A DNA stretch of 35,954 nt, taken from the NCBI GenBank assembly GCA_024276705.1, contig JAJRWS010000533.1, positions 1 through 35,954 on the forward strand. Direction: 5' to 3'. The notes under the pieces were generated by a model that saw only the letters and a list, made by a program, of their open reading frames with translations, searched no databases and was not told the origin of the DNA. This stretch comes from Planctomycetota bacterium (GTDB lineage: Bacteria > Planctomycetota > Planctomycetia > Pirellulales > Lacipirellulaceae). How positions within the stretch are numbered: position 1 is the stretch's first letter; each line of letters starts with the position of its first letter. Both the position numbers and the translations under genes were made by a program. Shown piece after piece: positions 12,981 to 33,734 of the stretch.

Positions 12981-12997
12981 TCAGGGTTCAGGGTTCC
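12981..12997. repeat. Heptad array overlapping the rrf2 stop codon
   Basis: Two exact TCAGGGT units (12981-12987 and 12988-12994) are followed by TCC. The rrf2 stop codon (12988-12990) is part of the second unit. Confidence 0.6.
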
Positions 12998-13458
12998 TTG
13001 GATTTTTCTTCCTCGGGCGGGGTGATTTGGACGACAGGATTTTCTTCGCAGAGCGGTTTCGAGTCGCCCGATTCGCTCAAGATTTCAGCAAGGGTGCTGG
13101 ATCGAAACGCCACCTCGATTTGCGCAATCGCATTGTCGATCCGTTGATGCAGCGGGCAGAGTTTTGCATGTCCCTCGATCCCGACTGGACATTTGTGGAT
13201 GCGCTCGAGTGGATCGATTGCCTGGGTGACATCCCAGATAGTGATTTCTTCGGGAGATCGCGCCAGCTTGAAGCCACCCCCCAGGCCACGGCGCGATTGG
13301 ACAATTCCAGCACGTACCAGACCTTTCATGATTTTGGAAAGGTACGGCGCGGGGAGCTTGGCGAGATCGGCCATTTCACGTACGGTCATCGATTCGTCGT
13401 ATTGGTTGGCCAAGACGATTACCGCCCGTAGCGAGTATTCAACCGTTTGCGAAATCAT
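12988..13458 (-). CDS. Rrf2-family transcriptional regulator
   Basis: 156 residues. The N-terminal winged helix is typical of Rrf2/IscR/NsrR proteins: MISQTVEYSLRAVIVLA, MADLAKLPAPYLSKIMKGLVRAGIV and the wing SRRGLGGGFKLAR. The ligand region reads HKCPVGIEGHAKLCPLHQRID, giving C90 and C101 only (C-x10-C), with a stray C137 in the tail. Classical NsrR/IscR carry three spaced cysteines, so cluster type and signal (NO, iron-sulfur status or redox) are uncertain. Position favours a role with the block: it is the last minus-strand gene, 63 bases after actF, and could be co-transcribed with nar-act and feed back on it. The long acidic/basic tail (EEEKSKEP) is not informative. Confidence 0.9.
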   Translation of the reverse strand: MISQTVEYSLRAVIVLANQYDESMTVREMADLAKLPAPYLSKIMKGLVRAGIVQSRRGLGGGFKLARSPEEITIWDVTQAIDPLERIHKCPVGIEGHAKLCPLHQRIDNAIAQIEVAFRSSTLAEILSESGDSKPLCEENPVVQITPPEEEKSKEP

Positions 13459-15543: not shown

Positions 15544-16086
15544 TTATTCGCAGCACGATGCCTGGTCCGCCGACAGCCGCTCCTCAATATTTTGTACATG
15601 GTGTTTTTCGAGCAGTTTGACCAGGCTGGGTAGATTAAAGTCTGATCCCGCTTCGTCAAGCACCAGCACGAACTGATCATTGGTGACTCGTATGGAGGGC
15701 GTACGCGCATGCTTGCCCGGATAGAGACGACTTACACCCAGCAGGGCGAAAACAGAGCCAAATCCAGCCAACAGGACCATCATTTCAAATGTGACCGGGA
15801 CGTCCGAAGGCAGCGAGTTCCATGGCTTGCCGCCAACATCCAGCGGCCAACTGGTTGCAGCCGTCCAATGCTGGAACCAGAGAGCCACGAGCGCTCCGGT
15901 CAGGCCGCAGAGAAAACAAACCCAGGTGAGCCGGGAGGGACGCAGGCCCATCGCCCGGTCGAGGCCGTGCACGGCATAGGGTGTGTAGGCATCGACGATC
16001 CGGTAACCCTGGTGGCGCACCTCGTCGGTGGCGGCCAGCAGATCTTCTTCGTAGTCGAACGTTGCGAGCAGGTGTCGATCGGTCAT
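15544..16086 (-). CDS. actD: Alternative Complex III subunit ActD (DUF3341)
   Basis: 180 residues from the ATG at 16086, which overlaps the actC stop by 4 bases; longer upstream frames belong to actC in another frame. The protein has the DUF3341 layout: a cytoplasmic N-terminal ferredoxin-like fold ([42 protein letters not shown]), two membrane spans ([19 protein letters not shown] and [17 protein letters not shown]), then a soluble tail ([22 protein letters not shown]). In ACIII it packs against the membrane core and has no cofactor. It is followed by a 157-base gap before actE. Confidence 0.93.
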
Positions 16087-17516
16087 GCGGCTGTTTCCTG
16101 GGTATCTCTTTCGGGAGCGGGTCGTCGGAATCCCATCACTCCCTTGACCTCCGCCATGGCAATCACTGGGGCGACGCGGCAGAAGAGCAAGAAGCAAGTG
16201 AAGAACAATCCAAAGCTGCCGACCAATGTGGCAACTTCGACGATCGTAGGCGTGTAGTGAGCCCAACTGGAAGGCAGGAAGTCACGATGTAGGCTGGTCA
16301 CAATAATGACAAACCGCTCGAACCACATACCAATGTTGACAACAATCGAGAGCACGAAAACCAGGGCCAGTTTCGAGCGAACCGCGCGAAACCACAGCAG
16401 TTGGGGGATGACGACGTTGCAGCAAACCATCGTCCAGTAGGCCCAGCGCATCGGCCCCAGGGCTCGATTCTTGAAAACAAACTGTTCGTACGGATTGCCA
16501 CTGTAGGCGGCCATGAAAAATTCCGTGGCATAAGCCAGGCCGACGATCGAGCCCATGGCGAGCATCAAACGGCACATCCGATCGATGTGCAGGGGGGTGA
16601 TGTATTGTTCCAGCCGCATGGTCTTCCGGGCTACGAGCATCAAGGTCAATACCATTGCCAGGCCGCTGAAGATGGCCCCCGCGACAAAGTACGGAGGGAA
16701 AATCGTCGTGTGCCAACCGGGAATCACCCCTGTGGCGAAGTCCATGCTGACGATCGAGTGGACCGAGAAGACCAGTGGAGTTGCCAGGCCGGCCAACAGC
16801 AAATAGACCGTTTCGTAACGATGCCAGGTTCGAGCCGAGCCATTCCAGCCCAGGCATAGCAGTCCGGTCAGCTTTTTCCGCAGGCCTGGCAGGGACCGAT
16901 CTCGAATTGTTGCCAGGTCGGGCAGCAGGCCGATGTACCAGAAGACGGCGGAAATCATCAGGTAGGTAGAAATAGCGAATACGTCCCACAACAGGGGCGA
17001 TTTGAAATTCACCCAAAGTGGCCCACGCGTGTTGGGATAGGGGGCCATCCAGAAGGCGAGCCAGGGACGTCCCATGTGAATCAACGGAAACAGGCCTGCG
17101 CACATCACCGCGAACAGGGTCATCGCCTCCGCCGATCGGTTGACGGCAGTCCGCCAGCGCTGACGGAACAAGAACAGCACGGCGGAAATCAGGGTTCCGG
17201 CATGGCCAATGCCAACCCAGAAGACGAAGTTGGTGATGTCAAAGGCCCAGCCAACGGTTTTGTTCAGACCCCAGGTGCCGATGCCGGTGGCAATCTGATA
17301 GGTGACGGCTGTTACGCCAAGAATCAACGCGGTCAGAGAGACGCAAAGCGCCGCGTACCAGAGGCCTGTCGGAGTGGCTTCCAGCGGTTTGCAGATGTCC
17401 CGGGTAACATCTCCCAGGGATTTGTCGCCTTCGACCAGGGGTGGCCTGATCTGGGGCGGCCTGATTTGGGGTTCCCGCAAGGGGGTAGGCAACTTCGTGT
17501 CCAAAGGTTTAGCCAT
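16083..17516 (-). CDS. actC: Alternative Complex III subunit ActC (NrfD/PsrC-like)
   Basis: 477 residues from the ATG at 17516, 8 bases inside the end of actB. It is an NrfD-like integral membrane protein with about ten spans; characteristic parts are [62 protein letters not shown] and [19 protein letters not shown]. ActC binds and oxidises quinol near the periplasmic side and passes electrons to ActB. Its N-terminal tail holds a 15-bp tandem duplication (17443-17472) giving [11 protein letters not shown]. It overlaps both actB and actD, as expected for a tightly coupled operon. Confidence 0.94.
17443..17472. repeat. In-frame 15-bp tandem duplication in actC
   Basis: Two 15-bp copies (17443-17457 and 17458-17472) differ at two positions and encode QIRPP twice near the ActC N-terminus, before the first membrane span. 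Confidence 0.6.
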
Positions 17517-20500
17517 GCGTGGTCTCCTTCGACGGTCCTTCGCTGCCATGGCGGTTGTCCCGTTCGTACTTGCCCATCTCAGGCTCATGGTGATTCGTGT
17601 TAGTCTCTTCGTGGGTATTCTTGACGACACGGAGATAGCCAATCGAGGGGCGGAAGTTGAATTCCTCCAGTACCCGGTAACGTCTCGGGTCGGCAATCGC
17701 CGCGGAAACACGGCTTTCAGGATCGTTCATGTCGCCAAAAACAATCGCCTGGGCCGGGCATGATTGCTGACAGGCGGTCAGGATCTCACCATCGGCAAGG
17801 GGCTTGCCCTGCCGCCGGGCCGCGATTTTTCCTGCTTCGATCCGCTGGACGCACATCGAGCATTTTTCCATCACGCCGCGAGTCCGTACGGTCACTTCGG
17901 GGTTCAATACCAGGTTCTGCAACAGATCGTCATGCGTGTATTTGAACCAATTGAATCGGCGTACTTTGTAGGGGCAGTTGTTGGCACAGTAACGCGTACC
18001 GACACACCGGTTGTAAGCTTGCTCGTTGAGTCCTTCCTCACCATGCACAGTAGCCAGTACCGGGCAGACCGTTTCGCAGGGAGCGTTGTCGCAGTGCTGG
18101 CAAAGCATCGGTTGATGATAGACTTCCAGGTCGCCCTCTTGGGGCACGATGTTGTCCTTTTCGGTGCCGTTCTTTTCGGGGCCACCTTCTGTTGAAGTAG
18201 CACCATTTTCTTTTGAAGTAGCATAGTAGCGATCGATGCGCATCCATTGCATTTCACGTTGGCGATGGACTTCGTCCTTGCCGACCACTGGGACGTTGTT
18301 CTCGGACTGGCAGGCGATTACGCAGGCGGAGCAGCCTGTGCAGGCATTCAAATCGATCATCATGCCCCATGCATGGCCCTTTTTGGGATGATCTTCGGGC
18401 CAGAGTTGGGTATCTCGCGGAGGCTCGTGGGGTTGATCACCCGGCGGATCTTTTGGCGGCTCGACTTGAGGATGAGGTGTCGTCGGGTGATGGACCTCGG
18501 GCGCGCCCGCATGGGGGTCGTGTGCGAAGGCGGCCAGCGAGGTTTCCTGAATGATCTCGCGGCGTTCGGCCCCGTGGGGGGCGACTCGCGCTGGCACGTC
18601 GATCGAGTGGTGCTCCTGCGTGCTGGCCAGCGTCTGCTTGCGCCCCGTCTTCTTGAGAGTAACTCCCTGACGAACGTACTGCAGGGTGCCATCTTTCAGC
18701 GCAATCAAGGGGGCCGCATTTTTGCCCACGGTCTCTCCCGGTTCGACGGTGGGCCGCGATTCCAGCCATTGCGGCCCAACTTTTGCAAACCGATCGGTGC
18801 CTGGGCAGCCATAGGCCAGGGCGATGGCAACGGTTTGCGCATGCTGGCCCGGTTGGATGAAAACCGGAAGTTCCAGCGGCGTTTGGGTGCCGTCTGCCTC
18901 TTCGCCAGCTACCTCAATTCGTACCACATCGCCATCGACAAGCGATTGTTGTCCGGCCAGGGTCTGAGAGACCGATACGTAATTGTCCCAAGTGACTTTT
19001 GTGACCGGATCGGCCAATTCCAGCAGCCACGGGTTGTGGGCGTGCTGGCTGTCGGGCATACCAATCTTCTGGTAGAGCAACAGGGTCAGACCTTCCTGGG
19101 CAGCGGGCGCTGCTGGGTTTTCTGGATCGGCTGGCAGTTGGCTCTTCTGGAATGGCTGGCTGGAGACCGGTTCGCGTTGGAGCTGGACATACCCGTCGTG
19201 TACCGCCTGGTCCCAGAATTGAGAGAAGTCGGTCTGTTGCTGCAGGGGTAGCAGTTGCTTCTGCCAATGGTCGCGCACCAGACTGTACTGCGAAGCGGCC
19301 TGGTCAGACCAGTTGGCCAGGCTTTCCAGGAGCGAACGCGTGTTGTGAATTGGTCGGATGGTGGGTTGGACAACCGAGACAAGTCCGTGGATCGGTTCCG
19401 CATCTCCCCACGATTCGAGTGTGTGATGGTCGGGGCAGACATAGTGAGCTCGAGCCGATAAATCGTCGACTCGGGGAGCAAAGCTGACGACCAGTGGGAC
19501 CTTGTCGATGGCGTCCGCCAATCCCTTGCGGCCGGCCAGGTTGTACGTCAGGTCGGTTCCGGCGACCAGCAGGGCGGCGACCTTACCTTGCCGCAACTGG
19601 TCCACCAGTTCTGCGACCTGGCGGTCATTACCTTGCCGCTGCAGGCTGGGATGCTCGATGTCGAGTGTCTCGCCATAACCTTCCAGTAGATGGTTGATCT
19701 GGTTGATCGCCACTTGCGTGGCAACGTCCTGACTGTCGCAGAGCACCAGGGATTTGCCGCGTGCATCCCACAGTCGCCTGGCCAGGTCCGCCATGTCAGC
19801 CTCGCTCACCGAAGTAGCTGCGGGAGAAGAGCCCTGCTCCGGTTGGTCCGCCAGTTGGGCCAGATGATGGGCCAGGTTGCGGATCACTCGCTGTTGCTCG
19901 CCTGGGCCGATCACCACCCGGCGATCCGCGTTGCTGCCGGAGAGGGACAGGCGGCTTTCCAACTGCACATGGTACGACATCGAAGGGGCCGCTTCGGTAG
20001 GTCGCCGGTTTCGACTCCAGGCTGCCGTGAACTCTACCGGTGCGATCCAGGTACCCAGGAAGTCGGCACCGAAGGAGACGATCACCTGCGCCTTGTCGAA
20101 TTGGTAGTGAGGCAGCAGGCGCACTCCGTGGGTTTTCTCATGCGCATCGAGAATCGCCGAAGAGCTGACCGCATCAAGGGTGATATGCTGGGCATCCTTG
20201 AATTGGCCGAGGAAGTCGGCGATGGTTTTCAGGAGAGTGGGGCTCGTGATGGTGGGGGTCACCAGGCGGACGGCTCCCCCTGCCCTCTTGATTTGGCCCA
20301 ACTGATCGGAAATGTCCAGGTCGATCTGTGTCCATTGAGCCTCTTTTCCACTTTTGAGTGGGCCACGGAGACGCTGGCTGTCGTACAACTCCAACGGCAT
20401 GGCCTGGCCCACCGCGCAGAGTCCGCCTCGGGTGAGGGGATGCTCGGGCATCCCTTCCATCTTCAGCGGTCTGCCGTCACGCGTGCCGACCAGCAGCCCG

Positions 20501-20856
20501 CAGCCCGCGGCGCAGCCTTCGCAGGTCGAGCCATAGTAACGAATCTGGCCTGGCACCATGCCTGCGGGATGCTCGATCATGGGCAGCGCGCCCACCGACG
20601 GCGCTCGGCCACAGCCGGCCACCGTGGCCAGCGAGAGCGAAAATCCGGCAGCTTCAAGGAATCGTCGCCGATTGAGTGACCACAAATCGTGCCCCAGTTC
20701 GCCTTCGGGTTCAACGTTGTCGCGGTGCCCATGGTCAGTCAGAGCGGGCTTCTTTGTCTGAACCAGTTTCCCAGGAGTTTCGCCTGCATGGGCCGGTGCG
20801 CGACTTGCCGGATTGGGAGGCGCTTTCCAGTATGTTTTGGTCGATTCTTGATTCAT
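17509..20856 (-). CDS. actB: Alternative Complex III subunit ActB (molybdopterin-like plus iron-sulfur)
   Basis: 1115 residues from the ATG at 20856; an adjoining ATG at 20859 is equally possible. A twin-arginine motif ([21 protein letters not shown]) lies at ~62-82, preceded by a ~60-residue leader as is normal for ActB, with a lipobox-like Cys at 82. An N-terminal iron-sulfur-type Cys set C112, C115, C119, C147 starts the molybdopterin-oxidoreductase-like domain (to ~750), which in ACIII holds no Mo cofactor. A Pro/His linker ([16 protein letters not shown]) leads to a ferredoxin-like domain with [35 protein letters not shown] and CSMC...CQQSC, enough for three [4Fe-4S] and one [3Fe-4S] cluster. 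It sits at the periplasmic face and links ActC to the haems of ActA/ActE. Confidence 0.95.
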
Positions 20857-21103
20857 CATCCCAATATTCCGTCGTTCCACGGCCAAATCTCCGTGGAGTG
20901 CAAAAGCGGTTAATATTTCTCGGTAGGAAAGTTTCGCTGTCGCCCCTACGGGGCTTTACGGTTCATGCGCCTGTTAACTCAGGGCTTACGCCCTGGGCCA
21001 TTCGCCGCCGTCCCTCCGGGACTAAAAGACGTTTTTCAGTATATTTTGGTCGATACTTGTTCCATAGTTCCACGGCCAAATCTCCGTGGGGTGCAAATCG
21101 GGC
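20828..21103. repeat. Duplicated actB 5' end flanking three perfect hairpins
   Basis: Copy A (20828-20914) covers the first codons and leader of actB. Copy B (21037-21103) repeats it (CAGTAT.TTTTGGTCGAT.CTTG; then TTCCACGGCCAAATCTCCGT), with about 15 bases fewer just upstream of the start. On the minus strand copy B opens ATG at 21065 and reads MEQVSTKIY then TGA, against [12 protein letters not shown] in actB. Between the copies lie three perfect hairpins: GCCCC-TAC-GGGGC (20942-20954), CAGGGC-TTAC-GCCCTG (20980-20995) and GTCCC-TCC-GGGAC (21010-21022). This looks like a REP-like insertion with a long duplication, now forming most of the actA-actB spacer. Confidence 0.8.
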
Positions 21104-21125: not shown

Positions 21126-21227
21126 AGAGAAATTTTCGAAATTAAAAGGCGGCAACTCAGCGAGTGGATCGCACCCCCTGGACACTCAACGCGTGACAAA
21201 CAAACATGCAATTTCGAAAAATTCTCT
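21126..21227. repeat. 18-bp inverted repeat directly after actA
   Basis: 21126-21143 and 21210-21227 are inverted copies (AGAGAA.TTTTCGAAATT, 17 of 18 positions match) separated by 66 bases. The arm nearest actA includes the actA TAG codon (21226-21228). It could be the ends of a ~102-bp miniature element or a long-loop terminator/processing hairpin between actA and actB. Confidence 0.55.
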
Positions 21228-21879
21228 AATGGTGACAAATGGCACAGTCCGTGGCTGCGTGGACCAGTTTGCCATTGACTCCGTTTTTGTTGGAATCGCG
21301 GTGGCAATTCACACACCATCCCATCGAAAGGCTTTCAAATTGACGCATTCGTTCCATCGATTCCACCGGGCCATGGCAACGTTGGCAGGCGAATCCGGCA
21401 GAGACATGGGCACTATGATCAAAGCAGGCGAAATCGGGCAGGTTATGCACACGCACCCACTCAATCGACTGGGGCTCGTTCCCTCCCACCGGGCTCAGTT
21501 TGTCGTCCAGGCCGAGCGAATCGTATAGCTTTTTAAGCTCGGGAGTGATGATCTGTTGGGGTTTGCGTTTCTCCTCATCCGCCTTCTTTCGTTCTTCGCT
21601 GATAACATCGAAGGAGGCGGTCACCACCTTGTGGCACTTCATGCAGATATCCGACGAAGGGATGCCCGCATAGCGGCTTTCACTGGCCGCCCAGTGGCAG
21701 AATCGACAGTCAATCTGTAGCTTGCCGGCATGCACACGGTGAGAATAGGCGATGGGTTGTTTGGGGGAATATCCTTGTTCGCGGTCTGGCAGACGCCAAG
21801 AGGCCATTCCCGAGACAAGCGTCAACGCGCTAAGGCCCAACGCGATCGAAAGCACGATAGTAATGACACGTTGTTGCAT
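21226..21879 (-). CDS. actA: Alternative Complex III subunit ActA (pentahaem cytochrome c)
   Basis: 217 residues with an N-terminal membrane anchor/signal (ITIVLSIALGLSALTLVSGM). Five CXXCH haem motifs: CRFCH (58-62), CMKCH (79-83), CQRCH (165-169), CVNCH (189-193) and CAICH (212-216), the last almost at the C-terminus. This is the pentahaem ActA of ACIII, which hands electrons from ActB clusters to ActE. A Lys/Glu-rich insertion (residues ~95-130) separates haems 2 and 3. No Shine-Dalgarno is visible; the start is directly preceded by TGAACCC-type heptads. It is normally next to actB; here a 369-base spacer with repeat elements intervenes, so stoichiometry may depend on translation from separate sites. 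Confidence 0.95.
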   Translation of the reverse strand: MQQRVITIVLSIALGLSALTLVSGMASWRLPDREQGYSPKQPIAYSHRVHAGKLQIDCRFCHWAASESRYAGIPSSDICMKCHKVVTASFDVISEERKKADEEKRKPQQIITPELKKLYDSLGLDDKLSPVGGNEPQSIEWVRVHNLPDFACFDHSAHVSAGFACQRCHGPVESMERMRQFESLSMGWCVNCHRDSNKNGVNGKLVHAATDCAICHH

Positions 21880-21947: not shown

Positions 21948-23543
21948 TTAACACTTTATCTCCGCTCCCTTGCGGGCGTAAAACCACCAGTTCACTCCCA
22001 GGCAGGTGCCGTAGTAGGCGGCGAAGCCGTAGAGCGCGTATTCGGGGGTCCCTGCTTTGATTTGGGTCGCGAAAATTTTCGGAATAAGGTAGGCGCCATA
22101 GGCGGCAATGGCTGAAGTCCAGCCCAGCACGGGGCCTGCCTGTTCCTTGGAGAAAATGATCGGTATCATCCGGAACGTTGAGCCGTTGCCGATGCCGGTG
22201 GTGGCGAACAGCACGATAAAAGTAATCAAAAATGGGATGAAGTATTGTTCGGGTTTGTCGGACTGGCCGGCGAGCGAAACAATGTAGCCAGCCAGGATCG
22301 TCGAGGCGACCATGATCCAGGTGTCCCACTGCGTCACGCGAGCTCCACCCCACTTGTCGGAGAGCCAGCCTCCCACCGGCCGGATCAAGGCGCCGACCGC
22401 GGCTCCGATCCAGATGTATTTCGAAGTGAGCAGACCATTGGTGGGGGTGACGAATACATCGTCGATCAGCTTGGGGAAGGCGTTGGCGTAGCCGATGAAC
22501 GAACCGAACGTCATCACGTAGAGCCAGGTCATGACCCAGTTGTGCTTGTTTTTGAAGATGGCGAATTGCCGGTTCAAAGGTTCCTGGATGGTCTTGGGAG
22601 TCATGAAACGCATGCTCAGCAAGGTGGTGATCACCGCGACGATCAATACCAGGAAAATTCGTAACAAATCGGGGACGTCAGGCATCGGTACAAAGACCAG
22701 CAGTCCGACACCCACTGCCGCACCGAAAAAGCCGATCATCTGCAGCCACAGGTACTTGCCGATGGCAACCGGGGTGGGACCGCAATCGTGCTGGGGAAGA
22801 TTGTTCATCAACAGCCACGCCAGGACGGCCAATACGGTCATGACCGGTACCCAGACCATCGCCGCGTTTTGAATCCAGAGCTGGTGGACCTGGCCATCCA
22901 CGGTGAATTCCTGAGGGGAACCGCCGATCGTGCCGAACATGCCAAAGGTGATGGCCCAGGGGATCAGAAACTGCATGACGCTGACCCCCGCGTTGCCCAG
23001 GCCGGCATTCAGGCCCAGGGCCAGGCCCTGCATCCGCTTTGGAAAGAAGAAGGAAATATTCGACATGCTCGAAGCGAACGCTCCGCCGCCGACGCCCGAC
23101 AGAGCTGCCAGGATGATGTAGACCCAAAACGGCGTGGTGGGATTCTGCAGCGCCATGCCAGCCAGCACGGCTGGAATGATGAGCATGACGGTGGTCATGA
23201 ATTTCACGTTCCGACCACCGCAGATAGCGATCATGAACGAGTTGGGTATTCGCAGTGTCGCCCCGGCAAGGCCAGCCACGGCGGGGAGCGTGAACAGCAG
23301 GGCCCGGTAGCCAGGCTTGTCGTAGGACCCGCCGTTGTGGTTGAACGTGAAGTCGAACAGATCCGGGTTGGCGAAGTGCAACCGCTGCATGATCTTGATG
23401 ATCATGCCCCAGTAAAGCCAGACGGAAAATCCGCAAAGCAGATTGGGAATGGAAATCCATAAGTTTCGATTGGCAATCGATTTTCCGGTCGATTCCCAAA
23501 AAGCTTCGTCTTCGACGTCCCAATGTTCAGGCGTACTGGCCAT
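21948..23543 (-). CDS. narK: NarK-family nitrate/nitrite transporter (MFS), NarK2/NarU-like
   Basis: 531 residues, 12 predicted spans. The nitrate-signature of the nitrate/nitrite porter family is clear in the fifth span: GGGAFASSMSNISFFFPKRM and then GLALGLNAGLGNAGVSVMQ; the second copy in the C-terminal half is TTGIGNGSTFRMIPIIF. Arginines in LRIPNSFM and ALIRPVGGW fit the paired substrate-binding arginines of NarK. A long periplasmic loop follows span 1 (residues ~57-75, HFANPDLFDFTFNHNGGSYD). This type usually exchanges nitrate for nitrite. It lies 54 bases after the NarK-DoxX gene and upstream of actA. Two NarKs of different types side by side are typical of denitrifiers (separate or fused NarK1-NarK2). 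Confidence 0.93.
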   Translation of the reverse strand: MASTPEHWDVEDEAFWESTGKSIANRNLWISIPNLLCGFSVWLYWGMIIKIMQRLHFANPDLFDFTFNHNGGSYDKPGYRALLFTLPAVAGLAGATLRIPNSFMIAICGGRNVKFMTTVMLIIPAVLAGMALQNPTTPFWVYIILAALSGVGGGAFASSMSNISFFFPKRMQGLALGLNAGLGNAGVSVMQFLIPWAITFGMFGTIGGSPQEFTVDGQVHQLWIQNAAMVWVPVMTVLAVLAWLLMNNLPQHDCGPTPVAIGKYLWLQMIGFFGAAVGVGLLVFVPMPDVPDLLRIFLVLIVAVITTLLSMRFMTPKTIQEPLNRQFAIFKNKHNWVMTWLYVMTFGSFIGYANAFPKLIDDVFVTPTNGLLTSKYIWIGAAVGALIRPVGGWLSDKWGGARVTQWDTWIMVASTILAGYIVSLAGQSDKPEQYFIPFLITFIVLFATTGIGNGSTFRMIPIIFSKEQAGPVLGWTSAIAAYGAYLIPKIFATQIKAGTPEYALYGFAAYYGTCLGVNWWFYARKGAEIKC

Positions 23544-23597: not shown

Positions 23598-25406
23598 TCA
23601 CAAGATCACCTCGGGCTCTTTCTCGGCGTCGATGCGTAGCAGGTGATCCACCGAAAGGGGCCCCGAACCTCGCCAGATGAACAGCACCAGCGTGAAGAAG
23701 ACGAATGTCGTGAATTGGAAATCGACGTTGTTGCCAAGCAGGACACCCTCGGTGGCACTGCTGGTAAACGAGATGATCACCGCGCCAAAGAGGATCAGCG
23801 CATTGGCTGCCGAAGCCACACGGGTGACAAAACCCAGCATGAGGCTGGCCCCACCGATCACGTGGGCAAACACAACCGACCAGGCGATCATCGTCTGGCC
23901 CAAGCTGATCTCATGGGGAAGTTCTTTGCCCAGATTTACGGCAGCCTCAAGATCGGCCATGTTCATGATGAAATAAATGCCTTTGAGCACCAGCGCTGCG
24001 CCAAGATAGATTCGCAGTGCATCCATCGGTCGCAGGTGACGGATTCCCGGGATGAGTTCGTGGAGTGGAACACGCTTCTTAGTTTCCTCATGCCGTTTGA
24101 GCATGGCCCGTTGAAGCTCCCGGTCAGCGACCAATTCGTCTTCGGGGCTGAACCGAACCAGTAGACTGAAAAAGGCACAAAAAGAGACCAACCCGCCCAA
24201 GATAAGCAGTGCTTGAGGATAGCTGATACTTTCCGCTCGAAACAGGAAACCTGCCGCCACGGCTCCCATGTTGCCTCCAGCCCCGACGATCCCGGCGACC
24301 GAGCCGAGCGCTTTTTTATTGATAAAAGGCACGATCGAATAGGTGGCCCCTTCGGACATTTGCACGAACAGACTGAAAAGGATCATGGCCGGGATTGCGA
24401 GTGCCAGGACTCGCATCTGAGAGAAAAAAACCAGTGCGATGCCCTCGATCATCAGGGCGATGAACAACCAGCGGACACGTCCTTTCAGTCCGCTCTTTTG
24501 CACGAATTTATCGCTGATGAAGCCGCCGAGTGTTCGCGCGAAGATATTCATCAGGCCAAACAGGCCAGCGACGAGTCCCGCGGTCTTGAGCCCCAGATCG
24601 AAGTAATCCATGTAGTAGATCGCGGCGATATTATTGATGGTCAGTTCAATGCCAAAGCAGGCAGCATAGACAAGGAAGAGTGCCCAGACCCGATAGTCAC
24701 TGGCGGCCAGCCAAAACGATCCCTTGCCCGAATCATCCTGAACCAGCTCACCCGAAGCACGGAGCTCTTTGAAATTTCCGTCTGGCAGGTCGGTAGTGAA
24801 GAAAAAGTAGGCGATTCCGACCAGGAAGCAGACCGCCCCGGCGGCCACCATCGACAGGCGCCACGCGGTCGCGTCGAGATAGCCGAGCCCGACAAAACTC
24901 GCGAAGACCAGCGGCATGATCATCTGCGTCACGCCACCACCCAGGTTACCCCAGCCGGCGCTGGTCGCGTTGGCCGTACCGACCACATTCGGAGCAAACA
25001 TCACCGAGGTGTGGTATTGAGTAATCACAAACGAAGCGCCAATCACGCCAATGCCAAGGCGGAATAGCAGGAAGGTCATGTAGTCGTGCGAGAGTCCGAT
25101 CGCCATAACCGGGATCGAGCCGCCCAGGAGCAGGAAGGTATAGCTTAGCCGGGGGCCAATCCGATCGCAAAGCCAGCCGATGATCAGCCGGGCCACAATC
25201 GTGATCGCGACCGAGGCAATGATCGTATTGCCAATCTGCTCTTTTGTCAGTCCCAGCTCATCACGCACCACCGCCATCAACGGAGCGATGCCAAACCAGG
25301 CGAAGAAGCAGAGGAAAAAGGCAAACCACGACATGTGGAAGGCACGCATTTGGGGCGTCTTCAGCGAGAAGAGATCAATACTTGTGGCTTTGTTGCGAAC
25401 TTCCAT
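23598..25406 (-). CDS. NarK1-type nitrate transporter fused to a DoxX-like domain
   Basis: 602 residues. Residues 20-420 form a complete MFS transporter with the nitrate signature GIGVIGASFVITQYHTSVMF and GWGNLGGGVTQ (~119-160); R73 and R291 are candidates for the substrate-binding pair. A charged linker (~421-455, EDELVADRELQRAMLKRHEE) joins a second membrane domain of four spans (~460-580): LRIYLGAALVLKGIYFIMN, MIAWSVVFAHVIGGASLMLGF, ALILFGAVIISFTSS and TTFVFFTLVLFIW. The RIYLGAALVLKG and HVIGGASLMLG motifs resemble DoxX-family proteins, which are named after a terminal-oxidase subunit and whose role is often unclear. NarK1-type porters are usually nitrate/proton symporters. Genes on both sides are nar genes. 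The fusion is one continuous frame, without a stop or frameshift. Confidence 0.88.
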   Translation of the reverse strand: MEVRNKATSIDLFSLKTPQMRAFHMSWFAFFLCFFAWFGIAPLMAVVRDELGLTKEQIGNTIIASVAITIVARLIIGWLCDRIGPRLSYTFLLLGGSIPVMAIGLSHDYMTFLLFRLGIGVIGASFVITQYHTSVMFAPNVVGTANATSAGWGNLGGGVTQMIMPLVFASFVGLGYLDATAWRLSMVAAGAVCFLVGIAYFFFTTDLPDGNFKELRASGELVQDDSGKGSFWLAASDYRVWALFLVYAACFGIELTINNIAAIYYMDYFDLGLKTAGLVAGLFGLMNIFARTLGGFISDKFVQKSGLKGRVRWLFIALMIEGIALVFFSQMRVLALAIPAMILFSLFVQMSEGATYSIVPFINKKALGSVAGIVGAGGNMGAVAAGFLFRAESISYPQALLILGGLVSFCAFFSLLVRFSPEDELVADRELQRAMLKRHEETKKRVPLHELIPGIRHLRPMDALRIYLGAALVLKGIYFIMNMADLEAAVNLGKELPHEISLGQTMIAWSVVFAHVIGGASLMLGFVTRVASAANALILFGAVIISFTSSATEGVLLGNNVDFQFTTFVFFTLVLFIWRGSGPLSVDHLLRIDAEKEPEVIL

Positions 25407-25473: not shown

Positions 25474-26154
25474 TTACTTGCGTCCGTACCAGCGGACTAC
25501 TTGCGGTTTGCGCCACAGGTAAGGATTGGGAATCACCAGCACATGCACCAGTCGCGTAAAGGGGAAGAAGCCGATGGTCAGAAACGCCAGCACCACGTGC
25601 AGCTTGATCATCCATGGCATGGCGGTCACGAAGGTAACATCGGGGGACAGTTTAAGGATCGACCAGAGGTAGGGCGCCATGCTGGTCGCAAACCAGGAGG
25701 AACCCCAGGGGTAGACCAGGGCGTTGGAGATGCCGCTCCCTGTCTGGATCAGCAGCATGGCAAACAGGATCCAGTCGGTCGGTGAGGTGACAATGCGCAC
25801 TTTACTGCTGCTCAGGCGGCGGACGATCACGCCCGTCAGGCCAATGAATGTCAGCAGGCCAAATGCCAGGGCGGTGATTTCCAATACGTAAAGACGCAGC
25901 GGATGGCTGTTCCATGCGAGCAGGGTGCGCGGGATCAGGAAGGCAACAAAATGACCGGCCGTTACGACCAGGATGCCATAGTGAAATGGCACAACGGCCC
26001 AGAAATGATGTTTGTTTTCCAGGAACTGGCTCGACAGGCTCGAGTAGGAGAACGACTGCATCCGGTAACGGTAGATCGTCATCAGAAAAAACGTAAACAG
26101 GCACACGTAAGGGAGTGCCACGAACATGAATTGATCGAGTACGTGTTGACTCAC
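25474..26154 (-). CDS. narI: Respiratory nitrate reductase gamma subunit NarI (cytochrome b)
   Basis: 226 residues, starting at a GTG that overlaps the narJ stop (GTGA). Five membrane spans with the four haem b histidines in expected places: H58 and H68 in FHYGILVVTAGHFVAF, H186 in KLHVVLAF and H204 in RLVHVLV. The length equals that of E. coli NarI (225). It anchors NarGH, oxidises quinol at the periplasmic side and delivers electrons to NarH. The C-terminus (NPYLWRKPQVVRWYGRK) is the usual one, facing the cytoplasm. 67 bases separate it from the NarK-DoxX gene. Confidence 0.97.
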   Translation of the reverse strand: MSQHVLDQFMFVALPYVCLFTFFLMTIYRYRMQSFSYSSLSSQFLENKHHFWAVVPFHYGILVVTAGHFVAFLIPRTLLAWNSHPLRLYVLEITALAFGLLTFIGLTGVIVRRLSSSKVRIVTSPTDWILFAMLLIQTGSGISNALVYPWGSSWFATSMAPYLWSILKLSPDVTFVTAMPWMIKLHVVLAFLTIGFFPFTRLVHVLVIPNPYLWRKPQVVRWYGRK

Positions 26155-27125
26155 GTCTTTCTCCTCGAGGTTTGGCTGCCAGTTGAGTGGGGGCTGCCAG
26201 TTGAGTGGGAGTTGTCAGTCGGGTTGGTTGGTGATTGGCTGGGTTCTGGCTGCACGGCCAAAGGTTCCGACTCGGGGCCCATGGAATCGGGGTTCGCAGG
26301 CGCGGAATAGGTCGTCTGGAGTGGCACCAGCGTGGGCCCGACACCGCAACCCCCGGGGCTCGCCATCGGGAAGGTGCCGGGCATGGGATAAGCTCGCAAC
26401 GGGTCGCCCAGTCCGGGCGGCCGTGGGCCATTCTGGCCCGGATGCGTATCTGCCCGTCGCTTGCTCATGAAAGACTGTTTGCCGGTGGCTTGCTGCGCGG
26501 GCGGCATCAATTCGTCTTCTTCGCTCCACGGTTCGGAAGGTCCGTAAAGTTGCTCCAGAACCAGCACCAGGGAGCGGAGCAAATGCCGGTAGGGCGAATC
26601 CATACCATCCAGGGCACGCTGCATCTTGGCCAGGGCGGGCAGCACGCAGGCGCGGGTCAGTCGTCGTGCCTCATCCTCGGGCATCGCCCCGATGACGGCC
26701 AGGACATGGGTCAGGTGGTCGGGCAGTTCGCTCGATTCGGTAATGCCGTATCGGGCCAACTCGCCCCGCATACGCACCAGGAACTGTCCGCGTACGTAGT
26801 CCTCCCCAAAGAGGTGCCAGCCCACTTCCAGGGCACAGGATGGATTGACATCGAAGGTGCGGGTGTATGCTTCTTCCAGCTCGTACGGGCCACATTGCTC
26901 GACATACCGGCCAAACTCGGAGATGCCGCTCGCGGCCTCGGGCAGTTCTGACTGCAGGATGACGTACAGCAGTTCGGTCAATGAGACATAATGTTCGTCC
27001 GGATAGCCAAGCAGCCGGCTGATGGTACCCAGGGTACGTACTTTCTCCGAGACGGGCGTATCCGCCGCGCTGGCATCCACGATGGGGAGTGGAAAGGTCG
27101 GATTTTCGGGAGGCGATTGGGTCAT
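26151..27125 (-). CDS. narJ: Nitrate reductase assembly chaperone NarJ with long Pro/Ser tail
   Basis: 324 residues from the ATG at 27125; the frame stays open further upstream but only through heptad-repeat DNA. Residues ~25-205 form the NarJ/TorD-type helical chaperone: TISRLLGYPDEHY, EEAYTRTFDVNPSCALEVGWHLFGEDYVRGQFLVRM, ELPDHLTHVLAVIGAMPEDEA, DSPYRHLLRSLVLVLEQLYG. It loads the Mo cofactor into NarG and keeps NarGH from inserting too early. The protein is ~90-130 residues longer than E. coli NarJ (236): the extra tail is Pro/Gly/Ser/Thr-rich and disordered-looking, ending in an 18-bp tandem repeat (HSTGSP, HSTGSQ) and SRRKT. It overlaps narI by 4 bases. No Shine-Dalgarno is visible. Confidence 0.94.
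   Translation of the reverse strand: MTQSPPENPTFPLPIVDASAADTPVSEKVRTLGTISRLLGYPDEHYVSLTELLYVILQSELPEAASGISEFGRYVEQCGPYELEEAYTRTFDVNPSCALEVGWHLFGEDYVRGQFLVRMRGELARYGITESSELPDHLTHVLAVIGAMPEDEARRLTRACVLPALAKMQRALDGMDSPYRHLLRSLVLVLEQLYGPSEPWSEEDELMPPAQQATGKQSFMSKRRADTHPGQNGPRPPGLGDPLRAYPMPGTFPMASPGGCGVGPTLVPLQTTYSAPANPDSMGPESEPLAVQPEPSQSPTNPTDNSHSTGSPHSTGSQTSRRKT
26175..26210. repeat. In-frame 18-bp tandem repeat at the narJ 3' end
   Basis: GGCTGCCAGTTGAGTGGG occurs twice in a row (26175-26192 and 26193-26210), and a partial third copy (AGTTGTCAG) follows. On the minus strand it encodes the HSTGS repeat of the NarJ tail. Confidence 0.65.
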
Positions 27126-27213
27126 GAAGAAGTTGTTAGTTGTGAGACGCGAGTTGGTGCGTGAAAGGTTCCAAACCCCGCCCTCTAGTTGGCTGTATCT
27201 TGTTAGCTCCAAA

Positions 27214-27250
27214 ATTCTGCATTCCGCATTCCGCATTCCGAAATCCGCAT
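27214..27250. repeat. Heptad array in the narH-narJ spacer
   Basis: Plus-strand units ATTCTGC, ATTCCGC, ATTCCGC, ATTCCGA, AATCCGC run from 27214 to 27248. On the minus strand this is (T)GCGGAAT-type DNA starting 2 bases after the narH stop codon. The remaining ~90 bases to narJ show nothing else. Confidence 0.7.
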
Positions 27251-27251
27251 T

Positions 27252-28745
27252 TCAAAGTCCTCTCTGCGGTCCACCGACAAAGCCGAAGCCTGTCTCGGCT
27301 TTGACTTCGTAGGGATCTTTGATCATCTCGATGGCCTGTTCACGATGCATGGGTGGTATGACGAACCGATCTTCAAAAGTGCAGAGCGATGTCAAACGGT
27401 AGATCGCTTCGGCATCTTCCACGGTGAGGTCGGCCTCGTGCAAATAACGGTCGGCCGTGGCCCGATCCACATCGCCTACCGTCTCCGCCCGGCGATGCCA
27501 ACGCACGGCCAACTGTTTGCCCATCGCGTAGCGGACCACACCTTCGTGTCCGGCTCCAAACAGGTTAGCGAAATACTGCATCGGCACCCGCGACTGATCG
27601 ATGCCATGGAACAGGCTGTCCATGGAGTGATTGGCCAGGCCATCTTCGAAATTGGCGATGACCGGGGACATGGGCGGCACGTAAAAAAGCATCGGCAACG
27701 TGCGATACTCGATGTGCGGCGGTAAGGCAATTTTCCAATCCATGACAAACTTGTACACCGGCGACTGCTGGGCCGACTCGATCACGCTGTCGGGAATGCC
27801 CGCCGATTGAGCCCCACGGATCACCTCGGGATCGTGCGGGTTGAGGATCAGTGAACGCTGCCCTTCGACCAACTGGTTGTCCGGCATGTTGGCAACTTCC
27901 TCCAGCCGGTCGGCATCGTAAAGCAACACACCCAGATAACGTATCCGACCGACACAAGAGTGGAAACAGGCCGGTGCTTGACCCGTCTCCAATCTGGGAA
28001 AGCAGAGGATGCACTTTTCGCTTTTTCCGGTGAACCAGTTGAAATAGGTTTTCTTGTAAGGGCAGGCGGCCACGCAACTGCGCCACGCCCGGCACCGTTT
28101 TTGATCGATGAGCACGATGCCGTCCTCACCCCGCTTGTAGAGCGCGCCGGATGGGCAGGAGGCGACGCAACAAGGATTCAAGCAGTGGTTGCAGATACGT
28201 GGCAGATAATAAAAGACCAGTCGTTCGACCGAATTGAGCTGCAGACGTTGTTGCTCGGTAAGTCCAGCCAGGTTGGGGTCGTTGGCGGCGTAGATTTCGG
28301 ATCCCCCCAGGTCATCGTCCCAGTTGGGGCCCGCCTGAATGTCGATATCTTCGCCAGTGATCATCGAGATCGCTTTCGCGATGGGCTGATCGGCTCCCTC
28401 GGGCGCGTTGAACAGGTTTTGATAGTCGTAGGTCCACGGTTCGTAGTAATCGTCCATGCTGGGCATGTGCGGATTGTGGAAAATGTTGGGTACCACCCGC
28501 GCTTTGCCGGTCGACTTGATGACCAACTTGTCCTGGCTATTTTTCTCCCAGCCACCTCGGTACTTATCCTGATCTTCCCATTGGGTGGGATAGCCGGTGC
28601 CCGGCTTTGTTTCCACGTTGTTCCACCACATGTATTCCGCCCCCTTGCGATCGGTCCACACATTTTTGCAGGCAATGCTACAGGTGTGGCAGCCAATACA
28701 TTTATCCAGGTGAAATACCATGGAGACTTGCGAACGGATATTCAT
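27252..28745 (-). CDS. narH: Respiratory nitrate reductase beta subunit NarH (iron-sulfur)
   Basis: 497 residues. Four cysteine groups match NarH: C16, C19, C22, C26 (CIGCHTCSIAC); C185, C188, C193, C197 (CNHCLNPCCVASC); C218, W221, C224, C228 (CRAWRSCVAAC), where Trp replaces one Cys to give the [3Fe-4S] centre; and C245, C248, C260, C264 (CILCFPRLETGQAPACFHSC). It conducts electrons from NarI to NarG at the cytoplasmic face. Segments such as NVETKPGTGYPTQWEDQDKY and RTLPMLFYVPPMSPV are strongly typical. There is no signal peptide. It begins 94 bases after narG; that gap carries heptad repeats. Confidence 0.98.
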   Translation of the reverse strand: MNIRSQVSMVFHLDKCIGCHTCSIACKNVWTDRKGAEYMWWNNVETKPGTGYPTQWEDQDKYRGGWEKNSQDKLVIKSTGKARVVPNIFHNPHMPSMDDYYEPWTYDYQNLFNAPEGADQPIAKAISMITGEDIDIQAGPNWDDDLGGSEIYAANDPNLAGLTEQQRLQLNSVERLVFYYLPRICNHCLNPCCVASCPSGALYKRGEDGIVLIDQKRCRAWRSCVAACPYKKTYFNWFTGKSEKCILCFPRLETGQAPACFHSCVGRIRYLGVLLYDADRLEEVANMPDNQLVEGQRSLILNPHDPEVIRGAQSAGIPDSVIESAQQSPVYKFVMDWKIALPPHIEYRTLPMLFYVPPMSPVIANFEDGLANHSMDSLFHGIDQSRVPMQYFANLFGAGHEGVVRYAMGKQLAVRWHRRAETVGDVDRATADRYLHEADLTVEDAEAIYRLTSLCTFEDRFVIPPMHREQAIEMIKDPYEVKAETGFGFVGGPQRGL

Positions 28746-28841
28746 GAGGGGGATCCTGGGAATTTGATGTCTGATTTATGATTGATGATGGAAGCTTTGG
28801 GCTCAGTTGTAATTTCCGCTTCCCGCTCTCCGCTCTCCGCT
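28746..28841. repeat. Heptad array across the narG stop codon
   Basis: Four 7-bp units TTCCGCT, TCCCGCT, CTCCGCT, CTCCGCT occupy 28814-28841; on the minus strand AGCGGAG, AGCGGAG, AGCGGGA, AGCGGAA. The first unit shares two bases with the narG TAG codon (28840-28842). The rest of the spacer toward narH (TGATGTCTGATTTATGATTGATGATGG region) has a loose TGAT repetition and no clear signal. Confidence 0.65.
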
Positions 28842-31800
28842 AAAATGTTACTACCGGGCACTTGCGAATGATGATGTGCGTGTCCCGGTTACAACCGATG
28901 GGGCCCCAGTAGTTGAAGTGGTAGGTAAATTGTCCGTAGCCGCCGATCATGAAGTTCGGTTTCAGTCGGGTACGGGTCAGGCTGTTATGGCCGCCCGCAC
29001 GGCGATTATTACGGATGGGAGACTTCGGTACGCTGTAAGTCCGTTCGGGAGAGTGGTACTGGATGCAAATGCCTGGCGGGATACGCGAACTGACCGCCGT
29101 CCGAGTTACCACGACACCATTGTCGTTGTAAACCTCGACCCAGTCGTTGTCGTTCACACCAATCTCTTCGGCATCCTGTACGCTGATCCAGATCGGATCG
29201 ACACCACGTGACAACGTAGTCATCCGCTGGGTATCGCCATAGGTCGAGTGGATGTGCCACTTGCCGTGTGGCGTCAGGTAGTTGAGGGTCAACGTTTTCG
29301 AGTCCGCGGGTGCTTCCCCTTCGCTGAAAGTCAGGTCGGCGTACTGAGTTGGCAGCGGTTTGGGTTTGTAGGTGGGGACATGCTCGCCAAACTGGATGTA
29401 GACCGGATGGTCGAGGTAAAAGTGCTGGCGTCCGGTCAACGTTCGCCACGGTACATCCGCTTCGACGTTGTAGGAAAATGCCGTGTAGGTGCGGCCGTTC
29501 TCAATCAGTCCCGACCACATGGGACTGTTGATGAACCGTTGTGGCTGGCACTGCAAGTCCTTGTAGGTGGCGCGAACCGAACGGCTTTTTTCCGCCAGAT
29601 GAACCAGCGGAACCCCCGTTTTTACCTCCATGTTCTTGTACGACCGGTATGCCAGTTCGCCATTGGTTACGGTGGCGAAATGGAGGATCGTTTCGCAGAC
29701 TTCGGTATCGCGACGGAGTGACGGGTACGTCTTGCCGTCCCAGGTCGTGGTGGGATGCGTCGTGAGGTACTCATCGTAAACGTCCTCGATCGCATAGGAG
29801 GTGCCGTGAGCTCCCAGGCCGCCGGCACGGACGTTGGGTCCATAGGAAATAAATTGGTTGAAGAGGTTCTTGTAATCGCGCGTGACGACCTTGAAATTGG
29901 GCATCGTTTTGCCGGGGATTGCCTCCACTCCGCCATCGATCCATTGCTTCATGCTGGACTGGGCGATTTCCGCCGGCGAGTCGTGCGCCAGCGGCGCGGC
30001 GACCAGATCTTCAACCGGTTCGGGAAAATGCTTCTCGGCCAGTTCCGAGAACTTCTGGGCGATCGCCTGAAAAATCTGCCAGTCGCTCTTCGCTTCCCAG
30101 CAGGGAGGCACCGCCTCGGAGAGCGGATGGATGAAGCTGTGCATGTCGGTCGAGTTCAAGTCGGCCTTTTCGTACCAGGTGGCAGCTGGCAGAACGATGT
30201 CGGAGTAGAGGGCCGATGTGTCCATGCGGAAATTCAGGTCGACAACCAGGTCCATTTTTCCCTGGGGGGCTTTTTCATGCCAGACGATTTCCTTCACCGA
30301 GTCGGCGGCCATGTCCTCGTGGACGCAGTTATCGTGGGTGCCGAGGTAATGCCTGAGAAAATATTCATGGCCCTTTGCGCTGGACATCAGCGCGTTGCCT
30401 CGCCAGATAAACCAGACGCGTGGCCAGTTGTCTTCGGCATCGGGATCTTCTACCGAGAATTTCAGGTCGCGGTTCTTAAGCCGCTCAGCAACCCAAGTGG
30501 CAACCTCTTCGGCCGTTTTCGCCCCCGCCTCGCGGGCAGCCGCGGCCACTTCGAGCGGATTTTCCGGGAACTGTGGGTAGAAGGGCAGCCAGCCATTGCG
30601 TACCGCGCGGACCTGCATGTCCATTGCATGGCCCGAGGCCATGTTGTCCTCGCCCTTGGCCCCTCCTCGGGCTTTGGGAACCGTATGGTAGTCGGTAAAA
30701 TCTTTTTCATAACGCCATTGGTCCGAATGGACGTAATGCCAGCTCGGCGCGTTTTGCAGCCGTGGGGTCGAGTGCCAGTCCTTGCCTGACATGATCGATG
30801 CCCAGGATTCGGCCGGAGCCAATTTTTCCTGGCCAACATAGTGGGCGAGGCCACCACCGTTCACGCCCACACAACCGCAGAACATCAGGGCATGAATGCC
30901 GGCCCGGTACATCAAATTGGCATGATACCAGTGGTTGATCCCCGCACCGATGATGATGGTGCATTTTCCTTCGGTCAATTCGGCCGTGTTGCCCCATTCT
31001 CGAGCAAAGCGAATCAGGTCCTCCCGCCCTCGACCGGTGTATTTTTCCGCCCAGGCTGGAGTGTAAGGCGCATCCTCATCGTTGTAATCGGTCGGATAAT
31101 CTCCGGGCAATCCACGCTCGACACCGTATTGGGCCATCATCAGGTCGTGCACCGTGGTGACTTGCACCTTGGTGCCATCGACAGTTTGGAGCGTACGGGT
31201 CGGCACGCCGCGCTGATAGGTCGAGCCCATGCCGAAATTGTCCAGCTCGACCTGGACCACATCGTCGTGCCTGGCCAGGAAGGTGAGTTCCGGATGAATC
31301 TCACTACCATCCTTGCCGTCCTTGAGCAGGAGGTTCCACTTCCCTTTCTCGTCTCCCCAGCGGTGGCCGGAGCTGCCCATCGGCATTTTGGGAGTGCCGG
31401 ATGTCTCGTCCCACATCAGGAATTTCCACTCCCCATGCTGTTGGTCGGCGTACGGTTTCAGCCGTCCCGCCCGGAGTAGTTGACCCGGGCGTGCGATGCC
31501 GTCGTCACCGGAAACCAGCTCCACCAGGTAGGGTGCGTCGGTGAATTTTCGGGTGTAATTCTCAAAGTAGGGAACCTGCCGTTGGTGGTGAAATTCGGTG
31601 AGCAGGACATGGTTGACGGCCATCCACCAGGCGCCATCCTGGCCGGCGTTGATGTCGATCCATTCGTCGGCGTATTTCGATACCTGACTGAAGTCGGGAG
31701 AGAAAACCCACATTTTCGAACCATTGTGCCGTGCTTCCGCCGCGAAGTGGCAGTCCGGGGTGCGAGTCATATTGAGGTTCGACCCCATTACCGCCAGTAG

Positions 31801-32511
31801 CTTGGCATGATACCAGTCGGCACTTTCCGCCACGTCGGTTTGCTCTCCCCAGGTCTCCGGCGAGGCGGTCGGCAGGTCGCAATACCAGTCGTAAAATGAA
31901 AGCGAAACGCCACCCATCAGTTGGAGTAGACGCGAACCGGCGGCGTAGCTGACCATCGACATGGCAGGGATCGGCGAAAAACCGGTAATACGGTCGGGGC
32001 CGTGGGCCTTGATCGTATGGATCAGGGATGCCGAGATAATCTCCAGCACGGTTTGCCAATTGGTTCGACGCAGCCCGCCCTTGCCACGCGCCTGCTGCCA
32101 GTGGCGACGCGCTTCGGGATTCTCAACCATGTTTTTCCAGGCCGCGACCGGGTTTTGATGGTTGGACTTGGCTTTGCGCCACTCGTCCAGCAAAGCTCCG
32201 CGAATGTAAGGGTACTTCACCCGTAACGGGCTGTAGAGATACCAGCTATAGGAAATGCCTCGCTGACAGCCGCGCGGTTCGTACGGCGGAATCCCCGACT
32301 CAAGCAGTGGGTAGTCGAGCCCCTGCATTTCCCAGGTGACAATGCCGTCCTTGACATAGATCTGCCACGTACAGCCACCGGTGCAATTCACACCATGCGT
32401 GCTGCGTACGATCTTATCGTGTTGCCAGCGATTTCGGTAAAACTCTTCCCAGCTTCGGCCTTGCGGATTGAGCTCGTCCCGTACCCAGGAGATGGCATCG
32501 AGTAGATTCAT
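28840..32511 (-). CDS. narG: Respiratory nitrate reductase alpha subunit NarG (molybdenum)
   Basis: 1223 residues from the ATG at 32511, which follows the upstream cytochrome stop by 7 bases. The N-terminus [20 protein letters not shown] lines up with E. coli NarG and has no working Tat signal, so the active site faces the cytoplasm. The FS0 cluster ligands are H39, C43, C47 and C82 ([21 protein letters not shown]). The Mo ligand is D212 in [20 protein letters not shown]. Typical stretches continue to the end ([66 protein letters not shown]). It reduces nitrate to nitrite using quinol-derived electrons; the same fold runs in reverse in nitrite oxidisers, but the NarGHJI context favours reduction. 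Length is close to E. coli NarG (1247). Confidence 0.98.
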
Positions 32512-32518
32512 CAGGTTC

Positions 32519-33430
32519 TCAGTGTTCTTGAGGTGAATTAGGTTTTTTAGCGGTGTACTGCTCGACCAGCGCGCGGCGCACGCCGGTGAACCGCTGCTTC
32601 CAGAGTGAATCGAAGACAAAAATTAATGTGCAGGAGAGGACCAGGCCCAGGAGCAGGAAGGTTACCCGGTTGACTGCGGGGGACGCTGGCTGCTCACTCG
32701 CGTGGGCCTCAAAAAACGCAACCAGCGTGTGAATTTCGTCCGGCTCCAATGGATGGGTTTTAAAAATAGGCTGCATCGTTTCGGTGCCAGGAGCAACGAG
32801 CCAGGCGCTAAGCGATTTGCGTCCTTTTAGCCGTTCGTAGACCTTCGTCAGATCAGGCCCCAGACGGCCACCGCCCAGGGCTGGCAACCCTTGGACACTG
32901 TGGCAGGAAATGCATGCGGTCCCGCCCTTTTTCAATCGCCTGTGGCCGAGAAAAAGCTCGCGTCCCTGCGAGCGATCTTCATCCGTGAAGGGTTTATTCG
33001 AAATTTGCAGCCCTTTGAATTGGGATTTTTCCAGCTTGGATTCTGCTTCGATCAGATCGAGCAATTTTTCTACTCGATCGCGAGTCATCCCAGTCAGGTT
33101 AGGCATGGGGACTTTTCGCGCTTCCTCGAATATTTTCAGGGCGTAAGGGTCGCCACTGTCGATCACCCCACGTGGGTCCATCATGAAGTTCGCCAGCCAT
33201 TCACGCTTTTGGCGTTGGAGAACATTTTTCAAATCAGGACCTGTTAAACGTCCACCACCGATCGTATGGCAACTGACACAATACTGCCGAAAAAAGTCGG
33301 GGGTATCCTGAGCGGAGGCCGTTCCCGATCCCAAAGGCAGCCAATCGAGGAGTGCCAGGCATAATGCTAGCAGTGTCAGGCATAGGGGCTGGAGCCTTAA
33401 TAGGTGCCGTGAGGATTGCCTTGAACTCAT
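32519..33430 (-). CDS. narC: Membrane-anchored diheme cytochrome c heading the nar operon (NarC-like)
   Basis: 303 residues from the ATG at 33430. The frame is open up to 33637, but the chosen start puts the signal peptide ([31 protein letters not shown]) at the N-terminus; start uncertain. Two haem c motifs: CVSCH (51-55) and CISCH (173-177), each in a mono-haem fold with GPDL after the motif ([16 protein letters not shown]) and possible Met ligands M109 and M219. A C-terminal span (~254-274, [19 protein letters not shown]) anchors it with a basic cytoplasmic tail. In Thermus, narC encodes a diheme cytochrome at the head of narCGHJI and acts as an extra subunit; the same position here suggests, but does not prove, the same role. 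It could also receive electrons from ACIII. Confidence 0.85.
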
Positions 33431-33443
33431 CCCTGAATTTGCC

Positions 33444-33497
33444 CGTAGAGGAACAAACGCCCGTAGAGAAACAAACGCTCGTAGAGAAGCAAGGCGT
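33444..33497. repeat. Three 18-bp tandem repeats upstream of narC
   Basis: Units CGTAGAGGAACAAACGCC (33444-33461), CGTAGAGAAACAAACGCT (33462-33479) and CGTAGAGAAGCAAGGCGT (33480-33497). In the frame that continues upstream of the chosen narC start they read as a SLRAFV repeat. They end 14 bases before that start, so they may lie in the leader. Confidence 0.65.
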
Positions 33498-33734
33498 CCG
33501 GGAACCAGCCAGCCTCGATTGGACTCATCTGTGCGCGGCTTGTGAGTCTCAACCGGCGGTTGGTTTCCATGGGACAGGTGAAGAGCGATCTGCCAATAGC
33601 CCCTGTTTGTCGCCCTGAATGGTGTGTTGGGTTCCATGGTGTCGGATATCCCTTAAATCTGGTTATTTACCGAAGAAACCAAGAGATTGTGCGATGACTG
33701 CGTGTCAGATTTTCTAAAGTTAAACAGACTGTAA

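Follow-up and report, generated by a model that had tools for sequence, protein, structure and literature searches.

A NarK1-type nitrate transporter joined in frame to a DoxX domain was found to be encoded by a single gene in a Planctomycetota bacterium (assembly GCA_024276705.1, contig JAJRWS010000533.1); this NarK1-DoxX fusion is genuine, old, and linked to nitrate respiration. The window, i.e. the whole stretch of DNA analysed, was 35,954 nt long. The fusion gene, narK1::doxX, occupied positions 23598–25406 on the minus strand including the stop codon, started with ATG and encoded 602 aa. Its 602 codons formed one frame from 25406 to 23601, and the plus strand of the same interval contained stops; the uninterrupted frame of the preliminary description was thus borne out, but on the minus strand.

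Three parts were distinguished in the deduced protein, all encoded on the minus strand: a NarK1/NasA-type nitrate transporter with 12 transmembrane (TM) helices (residues 1–416; 24159–25406), a charged linker (residues 417–459; 24030–24158), and a DoxX domain with four TM helices and polar positions Lys475, His515, and Gln564 (residues 460–588; 23643–24029). In the Pfam search, residues 27–384 matched MFS_1 (PF07690, E = 1e-36) and residues 463–545 matched DoxX (PF07681) with 29.6 bits (gathering score, 23.6); when scored alone, the C-terminal part gave 34.1 bits. The linker, 43 residues with 10 K/R and 8 D/E, was faster-evolving and predicted to be cytoplasmic. These matches and the linker composition agreed with the boundaries originally proposed (transporter at about 20–420, charged linker, DoxX at about 460–580), and the profile search that had been suggested as a check placed the C-terminal domain, with its four TM helices, in DoxX above the gathering score. 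All 32 full-length aligned family members matched both Pfam families. In the genome containing the window (assembly approximately 85% complete), neither a second match to the whole fusion protein nor another PF07681 match was found.

A total of 46 fused proteins were collected, consisting of 32 complete ones (from the window and the genome collection), 10 from a profile search, and 4 cut by contig ends. The related sequences came largely from metagenome-assembled genomes (MAGs), as would suit an assembly or frameshift artefact that joined two genes. However, all 46 proteins, from many assemblies and one isolate, had the frame and the junction in common, and none was interrupted there by a stop or a frameshift. 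An artefact is therefore extremely unlikely and was ruled out by the related sequences.

The AlphaFold model matched MFS structures, among them NarK (4u4w). Residues R73 and R291 aligned, via the neighbouring narK2 product, with the substrate-binding arginines of NarK, and these two residues, together with the nitrate signatures AGWGNLGGG and GAGGNMGA, were invariant in 32 fusions. The TIGR00886 NarK model was matched end to end with 301.2 bits (curated cut-off, 311.7); the narK2 product scored 279.8 and, despite being below the cut-off, was a clear relative of E. coli NarK (E = 3e-75). With the 12-TM MFS fold, the arginines, and the nitrate signatures all present, the initial assignment to NarK1-type porters was upheld. 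No second MFS domain was present in the chain, ruling out a NarK1-NarK2 fusion of the Paracoccus type, as had been judged from the outset. From its family, and by analogy to Paracoccus NarK1 and NasA (PMC5217062), the transporter half is expected to take up nitrate together with protons.

The fusion gene lay within a minus-strand respiratory operon in the order cytochrome c, narG, narH, narJ, narI, narK1::doxX, narK2, followed by an alternative-complex-III-like (ACIII-like) cluster. The cytochrome c gene heading the operon was located at 32519–33637 and narG at 28840–32619, the true start of the latter probably being near 32514. Genes narG, narH (27252–28745), and narI (25474–26154) exceeded the cut-offs of TIGR01580, TIGR01660, and TIGR00351, respectively, and narJ (26151–27236), which bears a long proline-rich C-terminal tail, fell just short of its cut-off (58.6 versus 59.35 bits). 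The next gene downstream of the fusion, separated by a 54-bp gap, was the narK2-like gene of E. coli NarK type (21948–23543); compared with E. coli NarK its product has about 70 more residues (about 251–320), including two hydrophobic segments that may be additional TM helices. The ACIII-like cluster (PMC10732223) comprised genes, also on the minus strand, for a multihaem cytochrome c (21226–21879, the first gene), a molybdopterin/4Fe-4S ActB-like subunit (17509–20886), and an NrfD/ActC-like membrane subunit with DsrP/NrfD similarity (16083–17711). The order narGHJI-narK1::doxX-narK2-ACIII-like was identical in the window and five relatives, whose fusion proteins shared 81–84% identity with that of the window. 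At three loci (L052, L055, and L068) the fusion gene directly followed the ACIII-like cluster; narGHJI was absent from the fetched stretch, with narG elsewhere in the genome. Fusions at four others (L059, L062, L069, and L074) had neither nar nor narK2 genes in the fetched stretch, so that a fixed partner for the fusion is not evident.

With the C-terminal domain as query, in a pattern that included the KGIYFI motif, a scan of the genome collection gave 38 loci, at 35 of which DoxX was in frame with NarK1; nar genes were within the fetched stretch at 22 of these 35. The ten fusions found by profile instead of the motif scan likewise had Lys475 and His515. Carriers were mostly Planctomycetota and mostly MAGs, including one isolate, Bythopirellula polymerisocia. 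About five other phyla were also represented, by MAGs of Krumholzibacteriota, Latescibacterota, Dadabacteria, a deltaproteobacterial group (placed in Myxococcota), and Bdellovibrionota; individual cases may be misbinned contigs. Among 392 genomes of the window's phylum, 14 complete fusions were found in addition to that of the window; in about 28 genomes the only match was to NarK1 and ended before DoxX. The 237 genomes of the phylum of L066 contained one fusion and five unfused NarK1. In the plasmid collection, 208 records had matches of the NarK1 type, all of which covered less than 80% of the query; thus, no fusion was found there.

A tie to respiration, already suspected in the preliminary description, was supported by co-occurrence with narG. 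This gene (E ≤ 1e-150) was detected in 31 of the 32 unique fusion genomes, in some as contig-edge fragments, versus 2 of 35 genomes in which NarK1 was exclusively unfused and none of 10 chosen for lacking NarK1 (Fisher p = 1e-15, in a test that ignores the relatedness of genomes). At the loci examined, unfused NarK1 copies adjoined assimilatory nitrate/nitrite reductase genes (nas/nirB operons), and in one Dadabacteria genome possessing both forms the unfused copy was in such an operon. Within 20 kb around 12 of the unfused NarK1 copies and about 4 kb around the others, no neighbouring DoxX gene was found. Because unfused NarK1 and NasA function in the absence of DoxX, it is unlikely that nitrate transport as such requires this domain; nor is the domain needed for nitrate respiration in general, as two genomes (G039 and G043) had narG and no fusion.

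In trees of the transporter half, obtained by quick searches and assessed by SH-aLRT in place of bootstrap, 42 fused and 35 unfused sequences were separated with one change (SH-aLRT 92; 84 in the first tree). The DoxX halves formed one clade (SH-aLRT 86), which was separate from 38 other DoxX proteins and had three standalone proteins of Bacteroidota as its nearest neighbours. These standalone relatives were encoded at L075–L077, the gene at L075 adjoining unrelated genes. The simplest reading of the trees would be a single fusion event followed by vertical and some horizontal inheritance. Values of pN/pS were 0.06–0.25 for the DoxX half and 0.20–0.56 for the linker, with synonymous sites near saturation in most pairs; these ratios indicate purifying selection on the DoxX half and weaker constraint on the linker.

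When modelled alone, the DoxX half gave a confident four-helix bundle (pLDDT 89). The full-length AlphaFold model was moderate (pLDDT 75.8), and no interface between the two halves was readable in it. The best structural matches among the viral protein models of BFVD were one DoxX and one MauE protein, with weak E-values, and sequence and fold searches of the PDB found no DoxX relative. The DoxX scaffold residues R465, G525, and R529 were kept in the fusion, and Asn535, Trp509, and Trp578 occurred almost without exception in the fused proteins. At three positions (window numbering) the fusions differed from other DoxX proteins, having Lys/His/Gln (K475 in 46/46, H515 in 45/46, and Q564 in 46/46) where the latter mostly have His/Glu/Glu; among 43 other DoxX proteins, neither Lys475 nor His515 was observed, and Glu515 and Glu564 were present in 40 and 24, respectively.

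The best explanation for the whole is a respiratory nitrate importer with a once-fused, re-specialised DoxX accessory module, a tentative reading with somewhat less than an even chance of being correct. According to this proposal, a NarK1/NasA-type nitrate/proton symporter, its function taken from the family, would be the importer of the respiratory narGHJI operon; it would have been fused, apparently once, to a four-helix bundle of the DoxX superfamily and the fusion kept since. In the DoxX half, the polar site within the membrane (Lys475, His515, Gln564, and Asn535) would have become more positively charged, and this half would adapt the importer to respiration. We infer that it does so by tuning or positioning the importer, most likely by keeping NarK1 next to the operon partners NarI and NarK2 and modulating it there, and not by the redox chemistry of canonical DoxX proteins. 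That the DoxX half serves solely as a structural anchor or a tether for dimerisation, like the Paracoccus NarK1-NarK2 linker, is rather unlikely: the conserved residues of that linker are dispensable and tethering has been proposed for it (PMC5217062), and narK2 often adjoins the fusion gene, but the invariant polar and charged residues K475, H515, N535, and Q564 within the membrane exceed the needs of an anchor.

The preliminary description had linked the fusion to coupling of nitrate entry to the membrane redox or thiol state, which is unsupported as stated. DoxD is a subunit of thiosulfate:quinone oxidoreductase, and coupling through quinone or thiol chemistry would suit this role as well as the respiratory context and the ACIII-like complex downstream. 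However, all or nearly all fusions have lost Glu515, which is near-invariant in other DoxX proteins, as well as His475 and Glu564, which are common there, so that a redox role borrowed from other DoxX proteins is unsafe; moreover, the window's DoxX half has no cysteine, and no DoxA or thiol-enzyme gene was recognised among the nar/ACIII operon genes scanned. The loss of the usual polar residues makes the redox/thiol link weaker and points to an accessory module that has been re-specialised; redox coupling has lost its main support and is now a possible but unlikely explanation. It is distinctly unlikely, too, that DoxX represents a new kind of functional module in an anion transporter, with nitrate or nitrite bound, or protons relayed, by the Lys/His/Gln site; if true, respiratory nitrate import would differ in its energetics or regulation from import by unfused assimilatory NarK1. 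Handling of nitrite or nitric oxide by the DoxX half, shielding the importer or passing the product on with a positive site in place of the acidic one, is very unlikely: the conserved site has shifted in charge towards Lys/His and the fusion is confined to genomes whose Nar enzyme makes nitrite, but no linked nir or nor genes were recognised in the loci checked.

Similarity to several known systems was observed. Paracoccus denitrificans NarK also contains a NarK1 symporter serving respiratory nitrate reductase and fused after its last helix via a variable linker (PMC5217062), but its second unit is a 12-TM NarK2 antiporter instead of a 4-TM DoxX domain, narK2 here being the next, separate gene. 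The transporter half was 56–71% identical to planctomycete nas-operon copies of the NasA/assimilatory NarK1 type; these differ in ending at about 445–461 aa without DoxX, in belonging to assimilatory operons, and in the rarity of narG in their genomes. With PF07681 (including DoxD and MauE), the fusions share the four TM helices, Arg465, Gly525, Arg529, and a C-terminal Ser/Asp motif; they differ in having Lys/His/Gln for His/Glu/Glu and in forming their own clade. A nar plus ACIII-like arrangement has already been reported for Planctomycetota MAGs (PMC10732223), in the same neighbourhood and from a MAG series (OFTM) shared with some of the fusion loci, but the main text of that paper is silent on NarK, on any transporter, and on DoxX. 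The nar operon of Thermus thermophilus has, as given in the abstract, tandem NarK1- and NarK2-type transporter genes (narK/narT), and the abstract mentions no DoxX fusion (PMC6394727). In the literature searched, composed mostly of papers available without subscription, none treated DoxX together with NarK, and the NarK1-DoxX fusion is apparently undescribed there; an earlier description is possible.

This transporter architecture occurs in several phyla in connection with nitrate respiration. It thereby places DoxX, a widespread family whose function is poorly understood, in a defined context. The existence of unfused assimilatory relatives, in some cases within one and the same genome, makes the contribution of the additional domain accessible to direct comparison, and the carriers include the isolate B. 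polymerisocia.

Elsewhere in the window, an Rrf2-family regulator was encoded at 12988–13458 on the minus strand; in relatives, a homologue is divergent beside the nar operon (L016, 18702–19139). A 2241-aa ORF at 1712–8437, also on the minus strand, contained Lamin Tail Domains and a CotH kinase domain.
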